This document shows, piece after piece, positions 19,746 through 28,210 of a DNA stretch of 44,194 nucleotides (its first letter is position 1; each line of letters starts with the position of its first letter). The notes under the pieces are model-generated. The model searched no databases. It was not told where the DNA came from and worked only from the letters and a program-made list of their open reading frames with translations. Source of the stretch: Pseudomonadota bacterium (lineage in GTDB: Bacteria; Desulfobacterota; Desulfobacteria; Desulfobacterales; Desulfolunaceae); NCBI GenBank assembly GCA_018818835.1, contig JAHIRD010000032.1, positions 1 to 44,194 on the forward strand, written 5' to 3'. The translations under genes were made by a program, and so were the position numbers.

Positions 19746-22685
19746 ATGGCACAGGATAGTAAAGAATTGAAGCCTCTTTTCAAAGATAACACCTCCCAGG
19801 CCCTTTCTCCTGGCTCGATTCCTGCCGATCTAAGTCAGGAATGGGCCGGTGGGTATTCCTTTGGGGCAAAGCACCGGAGCCCTGTGACCAGGATTGAAGC
19901 GTATACGTTCATTTTATTCATGGTCGGAGTTCTTACACCACTGATTATGTTTATGGCCATGAATTACAACACCCTTGTCCGTACCCAAGTGGAAGAAAAG
20001 GTCCAGAAACTGGTCGATACCTCTTTCACCATGAAAACAGAGATTGAGATATATATCTCAAAACGATTTGACTTCCTGGAACATATCGTCAATCACATGG
20101 GCCTTTCCCAATGGCTGCAGGAACACTCCCTTTTACACGAAGGGACCTATCAGAATGGAAGGGATCTTGAGAGAATCAAGCATGAATCGAATGTGGTCGG
20201 GTTTGAACGTATCATCATATCGAATTTATACGGAACGATTCTCTTTTCCTGGCCCGATACAAGCATCCTGGGAGCGAATATCCTGACTGATCATGATAAA
20301 AATATGACATGGGCCTCTGTTGCTGCGATAACGTTGAGATCAGGAGGGCGTCTTTGCTCGGCACCCATATCGTCTGATATTGGGCTGCCAGATACCCTTG
20401 CATTTCTCAGCCTTCCCATTATGGACGACAAAGGTCAAATTATCGGAGTGGTAACCAGCGGGGTCAGAAAGAGTCAATTTCTTGACATTTTGAATACCGG
20501 TTCCATCCGAAGTCCTAACACTGAGTTCAGCATCCTGGGTAATGATTATCAGGTCAAGCTCAGGGAGCCCGGAAAAGACGAAACACTCCGAGTGCATATG
20601 GAAGAATCCTTCACGTTAACCGGTGTTAAAAAAGAATTTCGGCCCATGATTAAAACTTACCGAAACAGTAAGGGACATCGTTATGCCGGTATACGAACCC
20701 GTCTGGATGAGGGACTGTTCAAAGGAAGCCCCTGGTATCTTTTGACAGAAATCCCCCTTGAGGCCATGTATGAAACACGAGTACGTTTTCAAAAGACGGC
20801 TCTTTGGTTCATCGCCGGGTCTCTGATCCTGGTTTTTTTGCTGACCTGGTTTCTTTTCCATGGAACCTTACAGGCCCTAAGGCACTACCTGACCTGGGCC
20901 CAAAATGCCACCGATGGAAACATCCTGGACCTTCAACAACCCCATGGGAACCACGAAATCGCGGAGTTAGGTAAGGCTCTGGGTTCTTTATCCCTCCGGC
21001 TGAAAGGCCTGGTCCGCTTTTGTTCATCGGGTTCGGTGGGGGATTTCGGTAAACCCTTTGATATCAGGGGTGACTATGACCGTCTTGGACAGGCTGTCAA
21101 CGGAATCCGGCATTATTTCAGAGCCATGCTCGCAAAAATTGATCTTATTGCCGACGGACGATATGGCCCGGCACCTGACCCAATCATACCGGCCGATGAA
21201 CTCAGCCCCCGGCTGATGAGATTGGCCGAAGCCCTGGGCCAGATGAACGACGATAACATGCACCAGATTTCTGAGGCCTTCGCCCAAATGGAACTGATGC
21301 GGATCGTGAGCGAAGACCAGAACCTTTCGTCCATGATCCCCAAGGTCCTGTCTTTTCTTTGCCAGTACATGAAAGCCCAGATAGGTTTACTCTATGTGTA
21401 CGATACGGACGAAAAAGCGTTTATTCTTACCGGAATTTATGGTGCACTGAAACATGACGCCCATGAACGGATTTTACCCGGAGAAGGCTTGTGCGGCCAG
21501 TCTGTCATTGAGAAAAGGCCCCTCCTGATTGATACCAAGCTGGACAGTGGCCCCGCCATAACATCCGGTTTAATTGAGGGACATCCTGAATCACTGATTG
21601 TTTACCCGTTTATCCTGAGGCAGGAGGTTATCGCCGTTGTTGAGATCGGAAGTATGACAAATATTAAGTCACAACACATTGATTTTCTCAAAAAAAACAA
21701 TGAAAGCCTTGCCATAGGTATCCATTCGGCCCAGTCCCGGAACCTTATGGAAAAGCTCTTGGAAAAAACCCTGGTGCAATCGGAAAGCCTGAAAATACAG
21801 CAGAAAAAACTATCCGGTGTAAACATTGAACTGGCCAACCAGGCAGAGGCCCTTAAAAAATCCGAAACACGGCTGAAGGCCAGGGAGGCGGAACTTGAAG
21901 AGGCCAAATCCATTCTGGAAGTCAAGGCAGAGGAATTGACCCGGAGCAACCACTACAAATCCGAGTTTCTGGCCAACATGAGTCATGAACTCCGGACCCC
22001 TTTGAATAGCATCATACTTCTTTCCAAGCTATTATCAGACATACCGGGTGAAAGCCAGGAAAGCAAGTACTCCAAATTTGCGTCCATTATCAATTCATCG
22101 GGAAAGGATCTTCTGAATCTCATTGATGAGGTTCTCGACCTGACCAAGGTGACATCCGGGGATATGACGATGAACATGACTCAGTACCCTCTGCGTGACG
22201 TTGAAAACGTCGTGAGACTCTTGTTTGATGGACAGGCCAGAGAAAAAAATATTGCGTTTGAGGTAAACAAGGCTGAAAATCTTCCGGAAACAATCATCAC
22301 CGACCCGCCCAAGCTTGAGAAAATCCTGAAAAGCCTTATTTCCAATGCCTTTAAGTACACCTCGGAAGGATGCGTGGCCGTTGAAATAAAAAGACCCCAT
22401 CCGGACACACCCATGATGATCCGGGGCCTTGACCATGAACATACGGTGGAATTTTCAATACGTGATACCGGGGAGGGGATACCGGACGCCATGCGCAACC
22501 TTGTGTTTGATGCCTTTAAGCAAGTGGACGGCAGTATCAGCCGAAAGCATGGAGGGGCCGGGTTGGGCCTTTCACTGGCACGGGGATTCGCACATCTTCT
22601 CCATGGAGAAATTCAGTTGATGCATTCAGACAAGGGGGGCAGTACCTTCAGTCTGTTTTTACCTGAAACGGGTGAGTACACTTAA
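19746..22685 (+). CDS. Cache-GAF sensor histidine kinase without receiver
   Basis: 979 residues. A cytoplasmic lead of about 50 residues precedes a first transmembrane helix (about 51-72). A periplasmic double-Cache-like sensor region (about 75-360) follows, then a second helix (about 363-384) and a HAMP-like linker. Next come a GAF domain (about 515-650, with GEGLCGQSVIEKRPLLI), a long coiled coil (670-735), HisKA with NMSHELRTPLNS (His747) and an ATPase domain with RDTGEGIPDAM and KHGGAGLGLS. It ends right after the ATPase domain, with no receiver. The next gene starts with one, 47 nt downstream, so the natural phosphate acceptor is probably that protein. The Cache region suggests an extracellular small-molecule ligand. 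Confidence 0.92.
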   Translation: MAQDSKELKPLFKDNTSQALSPGSIPADLSQEWAGGYSFGAKHRSPVTRIEAYTFILFMVGVLTPLIMFMAMNYNTLVRTQVEEKVQKLVDTSFTMKTEIEIYISKRFDFLEHIVNHMGLSQWLQEHSLLHEGTYQNGRDLERIKHESNVVGFERIIISNLYGTILFSWPDTSILGANILTDHDKNMTWASVAAITLRSGGRLCSAPISSDIGLPDTLAFLSLPIMDDKGQIIGVVTSGVRKSQFLDILNTGSIRSPNTEFSILGNDYQVKLREPGKDETLRVHMEESFTLTGVKKEFRPMIKTYRNSKGHRYAGIRTRLDEGLFKGSPWYLLTEIPLEAMYETRVRFQKTALWFIAGSLILVFLLTWFLFHGTLQALRHYLTWAQNATDGNILDLQQPHGNHEIAELGKALGSLSLRLKGLVRFCSSGSVGDFGKPFDIRGDYDRLGQAVNGIRHYFRAMLAKIDLIADGRYGPAPDPIIPADELSPRLMRLAEALGQMNDDNMHQISEAFAQMELMRIVSEDQNLSSMIPKVLSFLCQYMKAQIGLLYVYDTDEKAFILTGIYGALKHDAHERILPGEGLCGQSVIEKRPLLIDTKLDSGPAITSGLIEGHPESLIVYPFILRQEVIAVVEIGSMTNIKSQHIDFLKKNNESLAIGIHSAQSRNLMEKLLEKTLVQSESLKIQQKKLSGVNIELANQAEALKKSETRLKAREAELEEAKSILEVKAEELTRSNHYKSEFLANMSHELRTPLNSIILLSKLLSDIPGESQESKYSKFASIINSSGKDLLNLIDEVLDLTKVTSGDMTMNMTQYPLRDVENVVRLLFDGQAREKNIAFEVNKAENLPETIITDPPKLEKILKSLISNAFKYTSEGCVAVEIKRPHPDTPMMIRGLDHEHTVEFSIRDTGEGIPDAMRNLVFDAFKQVDGSISRKHGGAGLGLSLARGFAHLLHGEIQLMHSDKGGSTFSLFLPETGEYT

Positions 22686-22732: not shown

Positions 22733-24745
22733 ATGATCTATCCGGATACCATAAAAATTCTTATCGCCGACAACAGCCGGGAAAACCAGATCGCCCTTAA
22801 ATCGGTGCTGGATAAACCGGACTACGAGGTGATCACGGCTCATTCAGGGAAAAAGGCCATAGATCTATCAAAACACTACGATTTTGCGCTTATCCTTCTG
22901 GATATTGAGCTTCCCGGGATGGAGGGTTTTATAACCGCAGAAAAACTTAAGGCCCGAAAAAAAACCCAGCATGTCCCTTTAATTTTTATCAGCCCCAAAG
23001 CCCTGGAAAAAGATGACTTGTTCAAAGGATACCAGGCCGGAGCCGTGGACTATATTATACTGCCCGCGGACCCCGTGGTCATCAAAACCAAGGTCAACGT
23101 ATTTGTGAATTTGTTCCGCCTCAGGCAGGAATCCGAGAAGCGTGCGGCCGAGCGGTTAAAAAGTTCGGAGACAAAGTACAAGAGTCTGTTCGACACCAGC
23201 CGTGACGGAATTGCATTCATGAGTCTGGCCGGTCATATTGAAAATGCGAATAAAGCATACTGTGATATGCTCGGATATAGTTTGAATGACCTGATCTTCA
23301 TGACAGATAAACAGAACACCCCTGAAAAATGGCTTGAAAGGGATAGAGAAATTCTGGAAGATCACGTCCTGAAACGGGATTATTCCGAAGAATACCGAAA
23401 GGAATTAATCCGCAAAGACAGCACCGTGTTCCCGGTGATGGTTCGCATCTGGCTCGTCCGGGATGATAAGGGTGAACCCTTGCGGCTCCTGAAACTTGTC
23501 CGTGATGTCACAGATCAAAGCCGTCTTGAAACACAGCTCAGGCAGGCTCAAAAAATGGAATCCATCGGGACACTGGCTGGGGGCATCGCTCATGACTTCA
23601 ACAATATTCTCGGGGCAATCATCGGCTACTCACAGCTGGCCAGATACAACATCAAGGACAATGAACAGGCTCTTCACGACATTGACCATGTCCTTACCGC
23701 ATCGAACCGTGCCAAGGATCTCGTCAAGCACATACTGGGGTTCAGTCGATTGACCGAGCATAGCATGCAGCCCATTCAGCTCCATCACATTGTCAAAGAA
23801 GCCCTGAAGCTGATCCGAGCCTCCCTGCCCAGTACCATTGAGATCAAACAGAACATCACAAGCTATAAAACATCCATTCTGGCTGACCCTACGGAAATAC
23901 ACCAGGTTATCATGAATTTCTGCACCAACGCCCTCCATGCCATGGAAATAACAGGGGGGGTCCTTGAGGTGACATTGGAACCTGTTGAGGGGGACCATGT
24001 CGATTTTAACGAACATCCTGGGTTGAAACCCGGCCCCCATCTGAAACTGGTTGTCAGTGACACGGGGTGCGGCATAGACCCCAGGGATATTGAACGAATC
24101 TTCGACCCCTATTTCACCACCAAGAAAATGGGGACCGGAACGGGCCTTGGCCTTTCAGTGGTCCATGGGATCATCAAAACCCATGGCGGGTCCATCCATG
24201 TCTGGAGCCAGCCGGGTCAGGGCACGGTGATGACGGTGATGCTCCCAAGGCTCCAGTCCACTATAGAAAAAGCGGCCTCGGGTCCCGAAATGCTTCCCCT
24301 GGGCCATGAGAGCCTTCTTTTTGTGGATGATGAAAAATCACTGGTTGAAATAGAAAAAGTCATGCTCCAGCGCCTGGGGTACCGTGTGGTTTCTGAATCG
24401 AGCAGCTTGACGGCCTTTAATACCTTTAAAAAAAATCCCGACCATTTCGATATGGTGATCACTGACATGACCATGCCCGAAATGACAGGTCTTGAACTGG
24501 CCCGGGAAATAACTGCCATCAAACCCGACATTCCCATTATCCTCTGCACCGGTTACAATAAAAGAATCACCGAGGCCAAAGCAAAGGAAGCCGGAATTTC
24601 CCTGCTACTTTTAAAACCAGTCGAAATCAAGGAGCTTGCTGTTTCCATAAGACGCTTGTTTGATACCCCTTACAACCAAAGAAAGAAAATTGAACCCCTG
24701 GGCCGGAAAAAGGACCCGTCCCTTCCGGATAGCACTGATAAATGA
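22733..24745 (+). CDS. REC-PAS-HisKA-HATPase-REC hybrid kinase
   Basis: 670 residues, soluble. Residues 8-125 are a receiver with Asp57 in LILLDIELPGMEG, but the conserved lysine before Pro is a leucine (DYIILPADP). A PAS domain (about 145-265) follows. The kinase core has GTLAGGIAHDFNNILGAIIG (His287, the DFNN H-box kind) and an ATPase domain with DTGCGIDP and GTGLGLSVVHGI. A C-terminal receiver (about 535-650) carries Asp578 in VITDMTMPEMTG, with the usual lysine in LLLKPVE. The design is that of a kinase controlled by a receiver at its N-terminus, here probably fed by the kinase encoded just upstream. The SD is weak (AAGGA about 14 nt before the ATG). Confidence 0.92.
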   Translation: MIYPDTIKILIADNSRENQIALKSVLDKPDYEVITAHSGKKAIDLSKHYDFALILLDIELPGMEGFITAEKLKARKKTQHVPLIFISPKALEKDDLFKGYQAGAVDYIILPADPVVIKTKVNVFVNLFRLRQESEKRAAERLKSSETKYKSLFDTSRDGIAFMSLAGHIENANKAYCDMLGYSLNDLIFMTDKQNTPEKWLERDREILEDHVLKRDYSEEYRKELIRKDSTVFPVMVRIWLVRDDKGEPLRLLKLVRDVTDQSRLETQLRQAQKMESIGTLAGGIAHDFNNILGAIIGYSQLARYNIKDNEQALHDIDHVLTASNRAKDLVKHILGFSRLTEHSMQPIQLHHIVKEALKLIRASLPSTIEIKQNITSYKTSILADPTEIHQVIMNFCTNALHAMEITGGVLEVTLEPVEGDHVDFNEHPGLKPGPHLKLVVSDTGCGIDPRDIERIFDPYFTTKKMGTGTGLGLSVVHGIIKTHGGSIHVWSQPGQGTVMTVMLPRLQSTIEKAASGPEMLPLGHESLLFVDDEKSLVEIEKVMLQRLGYRVVSESSSLTAFNTFKKNPDHFDMVITDMTMPEMTGLELAREITAIKPDIPIILCTGYNKRITEAKAKEAGISLLLLKPVEIKELAVSIRRLFDTPYNQRKKIEPLGRKKDPSLPDSTDK

Positions 24746-24758
24746 AAAAGGACCGACC

Positions 24759-25508
24759 ATGTGTAACGAGTCAAAAACCAAAATTCTAATCGTTGATGAC
24801 CGGCAGGACAACCTTGTGTCCTTGGTTGACCTTCTTGAACGACCGGATCTGGAGATCATGACCGCCGATTCCGGAAACAAGGCTTTAAGTTTGATTCTTG
24901 ATCATACCTTTGCCTTGATTCTCCTGGATATCCAGATGCCCGGCATGGACGGATTTGAAACCGCAGAAATTATCCAGAAAAACAAGAAAAGCCGAAATAC
25001 CCCCATCATCTTCATCACCGCCATTGGCAGGGAAGATCAATACACGGCAAGGGGTTACGAGGTTGGGGCTGTGGATTTCATGTACAAGCCCATCCATCCT
25101 TATGTTCTGGTCAGTAAGGTCGCCATTTTTATTGAACTCCACCGCCAACGCCTGGTCCTGGAAACAACCGGCATGGAACTCCAGAAAAAAGTCGTTGAAC
25201 TTGAGGAGGCAGGACGAAAGATCACCGAACAACAGGAAGAGGTGGTGAAAAAAGAACGCCTTAAGGTTCTTCTCCAACTGGCGGGGACCACCGCCCATGA
25301 ACTGAATCAGCCCCTGATGGGCCTTCTGGGTAACATCGAACTTTTAGAGATGAACAAAAACGATCCTGAAAAAGTATTGAAACATATTTCAAGAATCAAG
25401 GAATCGGGACTGAGGATATCGAACATCGTGAAAAAAATCCAGGCCATCAGCCATGACAAACTCAAGCTGCATGACAGCCAGTCGCCTATTATCGATATTA
25501 ATCAATAG
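24759..25508 (+). CDS. REC-HisKA protein lacking the ATPase domain
   Basis: 249 residues. A receiver (about 8-128) carries Asp57 in LILLDIQMPGMDGFE and has a normal lysine (DFMYKPIHP). A coiled linker (140-170) follows, then a HisKA-type helix pair with QLAGTTAHELNQPLMGLLGN (His180), ending at 249 in a short polar tail. There is no ATP-binding domain, and neither the 3' flank nor the next gene supplies one. It cannot phosphorylate itself. It may act like a phosphotransferase, moving phosphate between its Asp, its His and other receivers, or as a decoy or dimerisation partner. AAAAGGA precedes the ATG at 24759, only 13 nt after the previous stop. A longer frame to 24660 runs inside the previous gene and is not used. 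Confidence 0.88.
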   Translation: MCNESKTKILIVDDRQDNLVSLVDLLERPDLEIMTADSGNKALSLILDHTFALILLDIQMPGMDGFETAEIIQKNKKSRNTPIIFITAIGREDQYTARGYEVGAVDFMYKPIHPYVLVSKVAIFIELHRQRLVLETTGMELQKKVVELEEAGRKITEQQEEVVKKERLKVLLQLAGTTAHELNQPLMGLLGNIELLEMNKNDPEKVLKHISRIKESGLRISNIVKKIQAISHDKLKLHDSQSPIIDINQ

Positions 25509-25586: not shown

Positions 25587-27338
25587 ATGGACACTCTAAA
25601 AGAAGACAAACCCAGGATTCTGATCGTGGATGACAAACCCATGAATCTGATTTCCCTTGAAGCAGCCATTGACTGCCATGAACTGGAAGTCATCAAGGCA
25701 GGATCAGGGAATGAGGCCCTGGGTTTGATTCTGGACCATGACTTTGCTTTGATTCTTCTGGATGTCCAAATGCCCGAAATGGACGGATTTGAAACGGCTG
25801 AACTGATCCGGATGAACCCGAAAACCAGTCACATCCCCATTATTTTCGTCTCGGCCATCAATAAAGAAGATTCCCATCTTTTCAAAGGATACGATACCGG
25901 GGCTGTGGATTATCTGTTTAAACCCGTGGACAGCCATATTCTTAAAAGCAAAATCCGAGTTTTCATTGATCTTTACCAGCAGAAAAAAGAAAGTGAAATT
26001 CTCAGTCATAATCTAAAGCAAGCCCTTCTCGAGGCTGAAAACAATCGAAAAATCATCGAAAATCAGAACAAGCTTCTCAAGGAACTGGCTGTGAAAGATG
26101 GTTTAACAGGCCTGTACAACCACCGCCATATGATCGTGGTGGCAGAATCGGAATTTAATCGGGCCAACCGATATAAGACAGAATTGTCCTGCCTTTTGAT
26201 GGATATCGACTTCTTCAAGGATGTCAATGACTCCCTGGGCCATCCCTTTGGGGATTATGTCCTCAAAGAGTTTTCCTTGTGCCTCCAGGAATACATGCGG
26301 GAGTCTGATTTTCTTTTTCGATACGGCGGAGAAGAATTTCTCGCTCTTCTTCCCCAGACCGACCTTGAGGGGGCCCGGTCCTCGGCGGAAAAATTTCGAA
26401 CAACCATTGAAAACAAGCTATTCAACGACGGAAACCATACATCCATCATCACGGTAAGCATCGGAATATCTTCCCTGCACTACAACCATCCGGCTTCTGC
26501 TTTCGAGATTATCGATTTTGCGGATAAAGCCCTGTTCACAGCCAAAGCCGAAGGACGTAACCGGGTGGTGGTCTTTCACGAGCATGAGCATGCCCTTCCT
26601 GACGGTGTTTTTCCCAGGGATTTACAGATACGCCATCTGAAAGAAAGCCTTGAAAGCATTTTAAAGAAAACCAAAAAAGCGTCTATTTTATCCTTGGAAC
26701 TACTGGCAAGGGACAGGGGAGGCTCTGTGGCGGAAAAACGGAGCCGCCTTCTCAGGGAGTACATATCGCTTCTGGGATACCATTTAAACCTCCCATTGTC
26801 TGTCATCGAAACATTCAAACTGACGGCCCTCATCCATGACTGCTTCCAGACTCTTCTGGGAAAAGAAGGCCCATGGCATGGTGAAAATATCACCGATGAA
26901 CAACCGGAAGAAGTCAAAAATCTTCCCTATATTCTGGCCGAACTGACAGAAAAATTCGATTTCTTTGCCAATGAACGGTCGGTCCTCCTGACCCACCATG
27001 AACATTATGACGGCAGCGGTTATCCCGAAGGTTTGAAAGAAAACCAAATCCCCATGGGGGCCCGGATTTTTGCCATTGCCGATTCCTTTGTGAACTTAAC
27101 CTGCGGTGCATTAAACGGCCAGGAAAAAAGTTTTGAAGACGCCCTGATCCAAATTGTTCAGGAGTCCGGAAAAAAATTCGATCCGACTCTGGTCAACCAT
27201 TTTTTGGCCGCCCTTATAAAAAGCGAGCCCAACAAAATATCGGACCATGTATACCAGCAGGCTCTAAAGATCCTGGCTCAGGGAAAGAAATCATCGTCAC
27301 CGAAAAACATGGCAAGCAAAAACGGAGTCCACTCGTGA
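25587..27338 (+). CDS. REC-GGDEF-degenerate HD-GYP protein
   Basis: 583 residues. A receiver (about 9-128, Asp59, lysine in DYLFKPVDS) is closely similar to that of the preceding protein. A coiled linker leads to a GGDEF domain (about 165-330) with an intact GGEEF active site at 247-251 and an upstream RxxD inhibitory site (RESD), so it should make c-di-GMP and be feedback-inhibited. A C-terminal HD-GYP-like region (about 350-560) keeps HHEHYDGSGYPEGL (His470, His471), but the HDxGK motif reads HDCFQ (His417-Asp418), so phosphodiesterase activity is doubtful. The start is taken at the ATG at 25587; AAGGTGA lies somewhat far upstream. It overlaps the HDOD gene by GTGA. Confidence 0.92.
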   Translation: MDTLKEDKPRILIVDDKPMNLISLEAAIDCHELEVIKAGSGNEALGLILDHDFALILLDVQMPEMDGFETAELIRMNPKTSHIPIIFVSAINKEDSHLFKGYDTGAVDYLFKPVDSHILKSKIRVFIDLYQQKKESEILSHNLKQALLEAENNRKIIENQNKLLKELAVKDGLTGLYNHRHMIVVAESEFNRANRYKTELSCLLMDIDFFKDVNDSLGHPFGDYVLKEFSLCLQEYMRESDFLFRYGGEEFLALLPQTDLEGARSSAEKFRTTIENKLFNDGNHTSIITVSIGISSLHYNHPASAFEIIDFADKALFTAKAEGRNRVVVFHEHEHALPDGVFPRDLQIRHLKESLESILKKTKKASILSLELLARDRGGSVAEKRSRLLREYISLLGYHLNLPLSVIETFKLTALIHDCFQTLLGKEGPWHGENITDEQPEEVKNLPYILAELTEKFDFFANERSVLLTHHEHYDGSGYPEGLKENQIPMGARIFAIADSFVNLTCGALNGQEKSFEDALIQIVQESGKKFDPTLVNHFLAALIKSEPNKISDHVYQQALKILAQGKKSSSPKNMASKNGVHS

Positions 27339-28210
27339 ATGACGTCTTGTCCAATATTTCAATTTTAACTCGTGGAATTCAATCATTCCCGGCCCTTCCT
27401 GCTGTGGTGGCCCGGATACTTGAACTCACCTCCGATCCGGAAAGTTCCGTTGACGATTTTCTGGACATGATCCAGTGCGACCCGTCCCTGACTGCGGTTG
27501 TCCTGAAATTGTCCAATTCGGCATTTTACGGACAAGTCCGAAACGTGGGTTCATTGAAGCAGGCCATCTCTGTACTGGGCATCAACGAGATACGCAATGT
27601 AGTGGTGGCACGGGCAGTGTTCAACAGCTTCAAACAAATTGACCACGGCGGCCGTTTTGATATCCGAAGTTTCTGGCTGCATTCCTTTATCTGCGGCCTG
27701 ACGGCAAAGATTTTGGCCGGAGAGGATGCGTCTGCAGATGATTTTTTCATCATCGGTCTGATTCACGATATCGGCAAACTGGTCCTTCTCAATGCCTTGC
27801 CATTATCCTTTTTCGAAGTGATTGAAAACCACAGTGGAAAGCCCTATGACCTGTTCCACTGTGAAAAAAGTGTTCTGGGTACCACCCATGCCGACATTGG
27901 AATGGCCCTTTTAAAACGTTGGATGTTTCCGGATAAACTGGTCAAAGCCGTTGGTTTTCACCACGCCCCTGAAAAAAGCGGAAAACCAGAGACCATACCT
28001 GCATTGATCTATTTTGCGGATATGGTGTCCTACCTGACACCAAGCACTGATCCAGGGGAACTGGACGCTCTGCTTTCAGATCCCTTGAACCAAAGCAGGG
28101 CTGACTTGGCGGGTATCTTGTGGGATGAGGTATCCCTTTCAGGATATCTGAACGAGTTGAACTTACGAAAAGATGAAGCACGGGAAACCTTTGCGCTGAT
28201 CTACTCATAA
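27335..28210 (+). CDS. HDOD domain protein
   Basis: 291 residues, nearly all one HDOD domain (about 15-215). FPALPAVVARILELTSDPES is the usual opening, then DPSLTAVVLKLSNSAFYG and IGLIHDIGKLVLLNALP, where an HD pair and GK survive, and later VGFHHAPE. HDOD proteins are signalling outputs in chemotaxis, c-di-GMP and development pathways and are usually not enzymes. The start is GTG at 27335, which shares GTGA with the stop of the REC-GGDEF gene, so the two proteins are made together. A downstream HDOD partner of a diguanylate cyclase points to a shared c-di-GMP output. Confidence 0.92.
   Translation: MNDVLSNISILTRGIQSFPALPAVVARILELTSDPESSVDDFLDMIQCDPSLTAVVLKLSNSAFYGQVRNVGSLKQAISVLGINEIRNVVVARAVFNSFKQIDHGGRFDIRSFWLHSFICGLTAKILAGEDASADDFFIIGLIHDIGKLVLLNALPLSFFEVIENHSGKPYDLFHCEKSVLGTTHADIGMALLKRWMFPDKLVKAVGFHHAPEKSGKPETIPALIYFADMVSYLTPSTDPGELDALLSDPLNQSRADLAGILWDEVSLSGYLNELNLRKDEARETFALIYS

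Follow-up and report, generated by a model that had tools for sequence, protein, structure and literature searches.

The 44,194-nucleotide stretch of DNA analysed here (the window) carries, directly behind two kinase genes, a gene for a protein (P0001) that has a receiver (REC) and a HisKA domain and no ATPase domain. This raises the question of what a protein with both a phosphorylatable aspartate and a phosphorylatable histidine does when the domain for autophosphorylation is absent.

P0001 has intact receiver and HisKA sites and no ATPase domain

P0001 is encoded on the forward strand at 24759-25508 and comprises 249 residues. Through Pfam searches of the translated product, we found a Response_reg match (PF00072) at residues 9-121 (1.4e-25) and a HisKA match (PF00512) at residues 172-229 (5.9e-10). 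The receiver domain (24783-25121) is complete in its residues, namely the acidic pair D13/D14, D57 (codon 24927-24929), T87 and K110. The HisKA or DHp domain (25272-25445), which is also seen in the predicted fold, has the H-box AHELNQPL, and its His180 (codon 25296-25298) lies within TTAHELNQPLMG. No HATPase_c match was detected in the whole 249 residues, an Hpt match (PF01627) was likewise absent, and the only Pfam match besides REC and HisKA was a sub-threshold one to PDE8A_N (E 0.01). The protein ends 20 residues past the Pfam HisKA match with no CA-like C-terminal domain, its last residues being the family tail IIDINQ (25488-25505, identified by motif count), which begins 64 residues past His180 and is followed directly by the stop codon. 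By eye, a Shine-Dalgarno-like AAGGA (24748-24752) is located 6 nt 5' of the ATG, and 13 bases separate the upstream stop from this ATG. The preliminary description had claimed a 249-residue product with intact Asp57, Lys and His180, no ATPase domain, its own Shine-Dalgarno sequence and tight spacing, and these results confirm it on each point.

An orthologue from a second genus shares the C-terminal end

A syntenic orthologue of P0001 (L009/L057) was found in another genus of the same family, with 75% identity over 244 residues and its C-terminus at the same residue. The cluster in this sister genome (L057) has the same order as the window: kinase, REC-PAS-HK-REC, REC-HisKA, REC-GGDEF-HD and HDOD. 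P0001 is the best conserved of six position-paired genes, the other five being 42, 68, 62, 49 and 61% identical. Within it, conservation is highest in HisKA, with 58 of 68 residues identical (85%) compared to 86 of 120 (72%) in REC. Between P0001 and the orthologue dN was 0.167 and dS was saturated, so that strong purifying selection can be claimed, without a dN/dS ratio.

The gene had been described beforehand as not looking like a fresh truncation, with same-length orthologues in related genomes proposed as a check; the orthologue of another genus, with its shared end, its identity and its dN, bears this out. A frameshift that restores an ATPase domain had been named as a possible objection. 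The next reading frame encodes a REC-GGDEF-HD protein with no ATPase hidden in it, so no frameshift can restore such a domain, and together with the shared end of the orthologue this rules out a frameshift or truncation of P0001. The window contig does come from a draft assembly in 334 contigs, but the same end in another genus, the low dN, the gene's own Shine-Dalgarno sequence and the family-wide architecture described below make it scarcely credible that P0001 is a decaying relic or an assembly artefact of a truncated kinase.

The absence of the ATPase domain is the rule of the family

At 1e-20, a profile built on the HisKA module matched at least 92 of 389 genomes drawn from the class and at least 17 of 395 drawn from the phylum, with up to 11 candidates per genome being scored. 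An order-level search, scored in the same manner on up to 11 candidates per genome, mostly repeated the genomes of the class search, and its weaker tier (about 1e-15 to 1e-20), which may hold ATPase-bearing kinases, was kept outside the family count. From most of the profile matches, with ten weaker listed ones left out, and from the matches of the search that gave the orthologue, we obtained 114 unique members including P0001, and assigned their domains with models built from window seeds, some members being cut by contig ends. The results showed that 67 are REC-HisKA-REC-GGDEF, 17 are HisKA-REC-GGDEF, 10 have HisKA as the sole recognised domain, 7 are REC-HisKA-REC and 5, like P0001, are REC-HisKA; the rest are HisKA-REC (2), REC-HisKA-GGDEF (2), HisKA-GGDEF (2), REC-REC-HisKA (1) and one protein (L128) whose HATPase comes after a second HisKA.

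In none of the 114 members, as judged by the window-seed models with some members cut by contig ends, does an ATPase immediately follow this HisKA. It had been suggested that orthologues all carrying an ATPase domain would speak against a genuine REC-HisKA protein; these relatives do the opposite. Pfam, run on 70 of the 114, found HisKA in 65 and HATPase_c in one, which in all likelihood is L128. Two of the ten HisKA-only members were run through Pfam individually, and showed only sub-threshold PAS matches (L045) or, in the short L056, nothing more. The absence of the ATPase domain is the rule of the family and not a peculiarity of the P0001 gene.

The IIDLD-like tail was counted in the same family. 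This count and those of the H-box below cover the profile-found members of loci L001-L137 only, because later loci were fetched with a peptide pattern in which the H-box is fixed; the profile itself was built mostly from His-bearing members. The loose motif I-I-D/N-L/I-D/N was present in 14 of 16 output-less members, each time starting 64 residues past the His, and in 74 of 94 fused members, 63 of these at exactly that distance, compared to 2 of 20 pattern-fetched ATPase kinases among the matches listed. The tail is thus common in ATPase-less members and rare in the sampled ATPase kinases. In the predicted fold of P0001, the tail region (residues 233-249) is unordered.

Scanning named genomes with the H-box peptide pattern yielded, among the matches listed, further members in Desulfobacterales, a Brocadiaceae bin and elsewhere; at a greater distance, it picked up many Myxococcota proteins whose chain likewise stops just past HisKA. 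The loci L150-L179, many of them from Myxococcota, encode among the matches listed large proteins that end soon after the same HisKA module with no ATPase after it; many of these carry a YVGxxxIIDLD-like tail, and L152 is GAF-PAS-PAS by Pfam.

In a tree of 73 non-redundant HisKA modules, one branch separated 54 ATPase-less from 19 ATPase-bearing modules, and this single change of the ATPase domain is given with reserve because it is based on a biased sample and on a support of 87, which is not starred. The 19 ATPase-bearing rows comprise pattern-fetched proteins among the matches listed and the three window kinases. In this analysis, four pattern-fetched proteins that run on for 44-107 residues past their HisKA were treated as terminal, and the GGDEF-only members, four in number, were left out. 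We tentatively propose, with appreciably less than even confidence, that a single loss of the ATPase in an old, coherent DHp family was followed by its spread through Desulfobacterota and Myxococcota, where its members would act as phosphotransfer (or phosphatase) valves gated by a receiver or a sensor, many of them wired into cyclic-di-GMP synthesis as REC-DHp-REC-GGDEF, with an IIDLD tail 64 residues past the His as the diagnostic feature.

P0001 and its neighbours follow the domain order of fused relatives

Two candidate phosphodonors are encoded upstream on the forward strand, a GAF-HisKA-HATPase sensor kinase of 979 residues (19746-22685) and a REC-PAS-HisKA-HATPase-REC hybrid kinase (22733-24745), both assigned by Pfam and both syntenic in L057. 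On the same strand downstream are the likely partner of P0001, a REC-GGDEF-HD protein (25587-27338 from its probable ATG, in a frame open from 25512; Pfam and translation), and an HDOD protein (27335-28210, Pfam) whose gene overlaps the end of the partner gene. The partner has GGEEF and RESD, the latter an inhibitory-site motif, and its HD domain keeps DGSGYP and has IHDCFQ instead of HDxGK, with the Lys missing. The intact GGEEF and RESD and the altered HDxGK suggest that the cyclase is likely active and that HD-GYP activity is doubtful.

The window holds the parts of the fused members in their order, split over genes as REC-HisKA, REC-GGDEF-HD and HDOD. Twelve family members have both GGDEF and HD, and the ten with at least 1.8 kb of downstream sequence were judged for an HDOD neighbour. 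The HDOD gene is next in six of them (L074, L078, L084, L091, L099 and L106), 3 bp on or overlapping as measured between stop-to-stop open frames, and is not next in the other four (L111, L121, L122 and L123). Two members with 0 and 116 downstream bases (L017 and L090) stand outside this count; in L082, a longer stretch around L017, an HDOD match was not found.

We also built a tree of REC plus HisKA, in which P0001 nests among REC-HisKA-REC-GGDEF proteins: P0001 and its orthologue (support 100) belong to a group of 14 (support 84), the rest of which consists of ten fused proteins and a second output-less REC-HisKA pair (L043 and L054). The open frames of L043 and L054 both overlap that of an HDOD gene. 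Among the fetched loci, the REC of the partner is closest to REC1 of the fused proteins, not to REC2. A simple fission of a fused gene into P0001 and the partner was rejected on this ground, and we infer from the same resemblance that the pair probably arose by tandem duplication followed by complementary loss. A single TAG (25506-25508) lies between P0001 and the in-frame REC-GGDEF-HD frame, and read-through there would yield the domain order of the fused relatives. In the sister genome, the P0001 orthologue and the next gene are in different frames, so read-through is not a conserved feature.

Gene contexts of other members were also inspected. Output-less PAS-like-HisKA genes (L045-L051) and a PAS-HisKA-REC gene (L053) adjoin a single-domain REC gene and a CheC/CheX-like gene, which in L045 matched CheC at 2.5e-11 and CheX at 1.3e-10 under Pfam. 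The L042 member adjoins genes for CheB- and CheR-like proteins (by eye), and REC-HisKA-REC genes (L038-L041) lie between a REC gene and a kinase gene. A middleman that handles phosphate would fit these contexts. A CheC/CheX-like phosphatase gene is also the neighbour of ATPase-less HisKA genes in L100, L102 and L104.

The helix from REC to DHp keeps a heptad register

The predicted fold of P0001 (11-row alignment, mean pLDDT 84.1, pTM 0.58) showed the last receiver helix continuing as one helix over residues 114-198, followed by a helix at 203-233. The signal helix linking REC and DHp (25122-25271, from spacing and predicted fold) lies within the former. According to the accessible text of a 2026 study of LvrB (PMC13269768), receiver-controlled kinases tend to have REC-DHp linkers that span a multiple of seven residues from the REC Lys-Pro to the H-box. 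In P0001, the distance from the Lys-Pro (Lys110) to His180 is 70 residues, or ten heptads, and falls into this LvrB-type register. Across the family, this distance was 56, 63 or 70 residues, a multiple of seven, in 45 of the 48 members measured, and in 28 of 30 after 70% redundancy removal; the count takes members with a REC Lys-Pro (absent in 19 of 66 rows) in a directly preceding REC, at distances up to 110 residues. Two close relatives at 60 and one member at 92 deviate, and the length class changes 10 times on the tree. Two other spacings served as controls: of the values off the mode, 0 of 19 for His-to-REC2 and 0 of 15 for REC2-to-GGDEF lay a multiple of seven away from it. The heptad distances and the control spacings without such a rule together indicate that selection acts on the register of the REC-to-DHp helix in these proteins, which have no autophosphorylation domain; this is our firmest mechanistic result.

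In Foldseek searches, LvrB (REC-DHp-CA) was the best-ranked match spanning both REC and DHp (rank 2, 230 columns, rmsd 10.5). PorX aligned over more columns (up to 250) but with an rmsd of 28, so its matches cover REC only, and it was rejected as a two-domain match. VIA-align returned REC matches only, with the PleD REC on top, and is silent on DHp.

The conserved histidine and H-box residues bear on four readings

Conservation of His180 had been proposed as a check of the preliminary description, and the results showed that 84 of 94 fused relatives have retained this His, as have all 16 output-less ones. The fused members have E or D at H+1 in 93 of 94 and Q at H+4 in 92 of 94, and the output-less members keep H, E, N, Q and P in all 16. 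In the HisKA kinase CrdS, kinase activity but not phosphatase activity depends on the acid at H+1, and phosphatase activity requires Thr or Asn at H+4, as stated in the accessible part of PMC3510030. Both positions are conserved here in proteins unable to be kinases alone, so they do not distinguish phosphotransfer from phosphatase action.

We consider it somewhat unlikely that P0001 is a dedicated aspartyl-phosphate phosphatase, whose receiver-gated DHp removes phosphate from the next gene's receiver, or from its own, and so resets the cyclic-di-GMP branch. The Gln at H+4, which occupies the phosphatase position, persists in 8 of 10 fused members that lack the His. EnvZ without its catalytic domain reportedly has phosphatase activity, and the accessible text of Galperin et al. 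2018 (PMC5847659) raises such an activity for ATPase-less HisKA proteins. In 11 distinct loci, a family gene has a CheC/CheX-like phosphatase gene beside it (Pfam being run on one), which suggests a role for dephosphorylation in these circuits. Against this, the acid at H+1 would be superfluous in a pure phosphatase, the residue at H+4 is Gln and not the Thr or Asn tested in CrdS, and Gln also occupies H+4 in 20 of 20 ATPase-bearing HELNQPL kinases among the matches listed, for which the fetching pattern demands Gln.

Loss of the His was compared with changes in the receivers. Ten of 94 fused members have lost the His and 29 of 93 the REC2 Asp, with only a weak association between the two losses (p=0.069); L088, whose REC2 is cut by the contig, was counted as not Asp in this association test and dropped from the Glu and tree-aware tests. 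No association was found between His loss and REC1 Asp loss (p=0.37). Glu occupies the REC2 Asp position in 6 of 10 His-lost members compared to 8 of 83 others (p=0.0006), an excess noticed post hoc with kinship ignored, and a tree-aware test of it had 3 supported independent pairs and was powerless. Glu often mimics phosphorylated Asp, and the six members with the His lost and REC2 Asp changed to Glu suggest, post hoc, a relay with its end locked on. An argument for a phosphorelay from co-loss of His and REC2 Asp was rejected in view of the p value, the post hoc Glu excess and the powerless test. Four fused members of the window's own family (L014, L015, L016 and L018) have lost the REC2 Asp and the GGDEF signature while keeping the REC1 Asp and the His, suggesting that REC-HisKA may be their sole working part. 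The L145 protein, a fused REC-HisKA-REC-GGDEF relative, retains the sites along with GGEEF.

The members without the His also bear on a mechanical dimer switch, in which DHp relays a conformational change of the receiver to an attached or partner protein and the His is dispensable. Heptad spacing is kept in the His-less L019, L020, L122 and L148, and the GGEEF/GGDEF signature in 7 of 10 fused members without the His. P0001 itself has no output domain to move, and the H-box residues are kept in all the output-less members, although the contrast of 16/16 with 84/94 is too small alone; we therefore regard this switch as unlikely.

A split kinase, in which the ATPase domain of a neighbouring kinase phosphorylates His180 in trans and P0001 is the substrate subunit, appears still less probable. 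It has a precedent in CheA3/CheA4, HisKA proteins without HATPase are proposed as candidates in the accessible text of PMC3591291, and the acid at H+1, used in autokinase reactions, is kept. However, the H-box pattern was recognised for 61 of the 74 HATPase domains of L001-L137; the other 13 were inspected by eye and comprise 7 with a canonical H-box, one with HQFNN (L006), one with Gln for His (L024), 3 cut by an end and one unplaced (L063, 205 residues). A partner kinase without its own His is thus rare among the fetched loci L001-L137. The HisKA of P0001 (residues 153-231) shares only 27% identity with the HisKA of the adjacent kinase, which also argues against a split kinase. The 569-residue frame of L024 encodes a HATPase protein with Gln at the His position of its H-box (AQEMNNPL), possibly an ATPase-only counterpart.

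A receiver-gated phosphotransfer module is the best-supported reading

The preliminary description had offered two functions for P0001. A dimerising inhibitor of a neighbouring kinase found no support, given the 27% identity and the GGDEF domain carried by most members. The phosphotransfer hub is the best-supported of the readings, through the intact sites, the family-wide absence of the ATPase domain and the fusion of this HisKA to REC-GGDEF, while the transfer itself is inferred. We accordingly favour, with confidence a little short of even, a receiver-gated DHp module that handles phosphoryl groups generated elsewhere and stands between a neighbouring kinase and the REC-GGDEF-HD protein of the next gene. 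A neighbouring kinase, most likely the hybrid kinase, would phosphorylate Asp57, upon which the receiver would change the register of the coiled coil along the unbroken helix that leads into the DHp bundle. From Asp57 the phosphoryl group would pass to His180 and from there to the receiver of the REC-GGDEF-HD protein, setting the cyclic-di-GMP output. The sites, the heptad-locked spacing, the fused relatives, the collinear neighbours and the conservation across genera are observed for P0001; the donor to Asp57, the direction of transfer and the phosphorylation of His180 are presumed.

Comparison with known systems

HisKA proteins without HATPase are known as a class (accessible parts of PMC5847659 and PMC3591291), and a SMART count of 2013 gave 1556 of 42417 HisKA proteins without an ATPase (PMC3591291, same part). 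The archaeal "HisKA, no HATPase" proteins, non-enzymatic and histidine kinase-like (Galperin et al. 2018, PMC5847659; "possible incomplete histidine kinases" in P2CS), often annotated as kinases, share with P0001 a C-terminal HisKA with a conserved His and no recognisable HATPase, and some, such as AF_1472, are REC-PAS/GAF-HisKA. As described in the available text, these proteins are archaeal and have PAS/GAF domains, whereas the P0001 family is bacterial, has its REC joined by a heptad-locked helix and mostly carries a REC-GGDEF output. LvrB of Leptospira (PDB 8vc9; accessible text of PMC13269768) resembles P0001 in its REC-signal helix-DHp order and its preference for heptad multiples; unlike P0001, it has a working CA domain and autophosphorylates. 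Searches of open-access literature yielded no description of a family with the REC-HisKA-REC-GGDEF layout, nor of heptad gating in proteins that have no kinase domain, and the accessible portions of PMC11210211, PMC4618731 and PMC1183210 contain nothing on the REC-HisKA-REC-GGDEF architecture.

The family forms a recognisable, testable set, often with the His, the receiver gate and the cyclic-di-GMP output in one polypeptide, so that the phosphotransfer, phosphatase and mechanical models are separable by point mutants. It would show that the gating of a DHp by a receiver through a helix can outlive the kinase activity thought to be its purpose. P0001 may be likened to Spo0B and ChpT, whose DHp carries out phosphotransfer without ATP-driven autophosphorylation. 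These have a CA-like C-terminal domain, which is defining for DHp-type phosphotransferases, whereas P0001 has its own REC and no such domain. Diguanylate cyclases of the PleD type are REC-REC-GGDEF proteins, and the relatives of P0001 similarly carry two RECs upstream of GGDEF; unlike in PleD, the HisKA module is placed between these RECs or, as in the window, on a separate protein.
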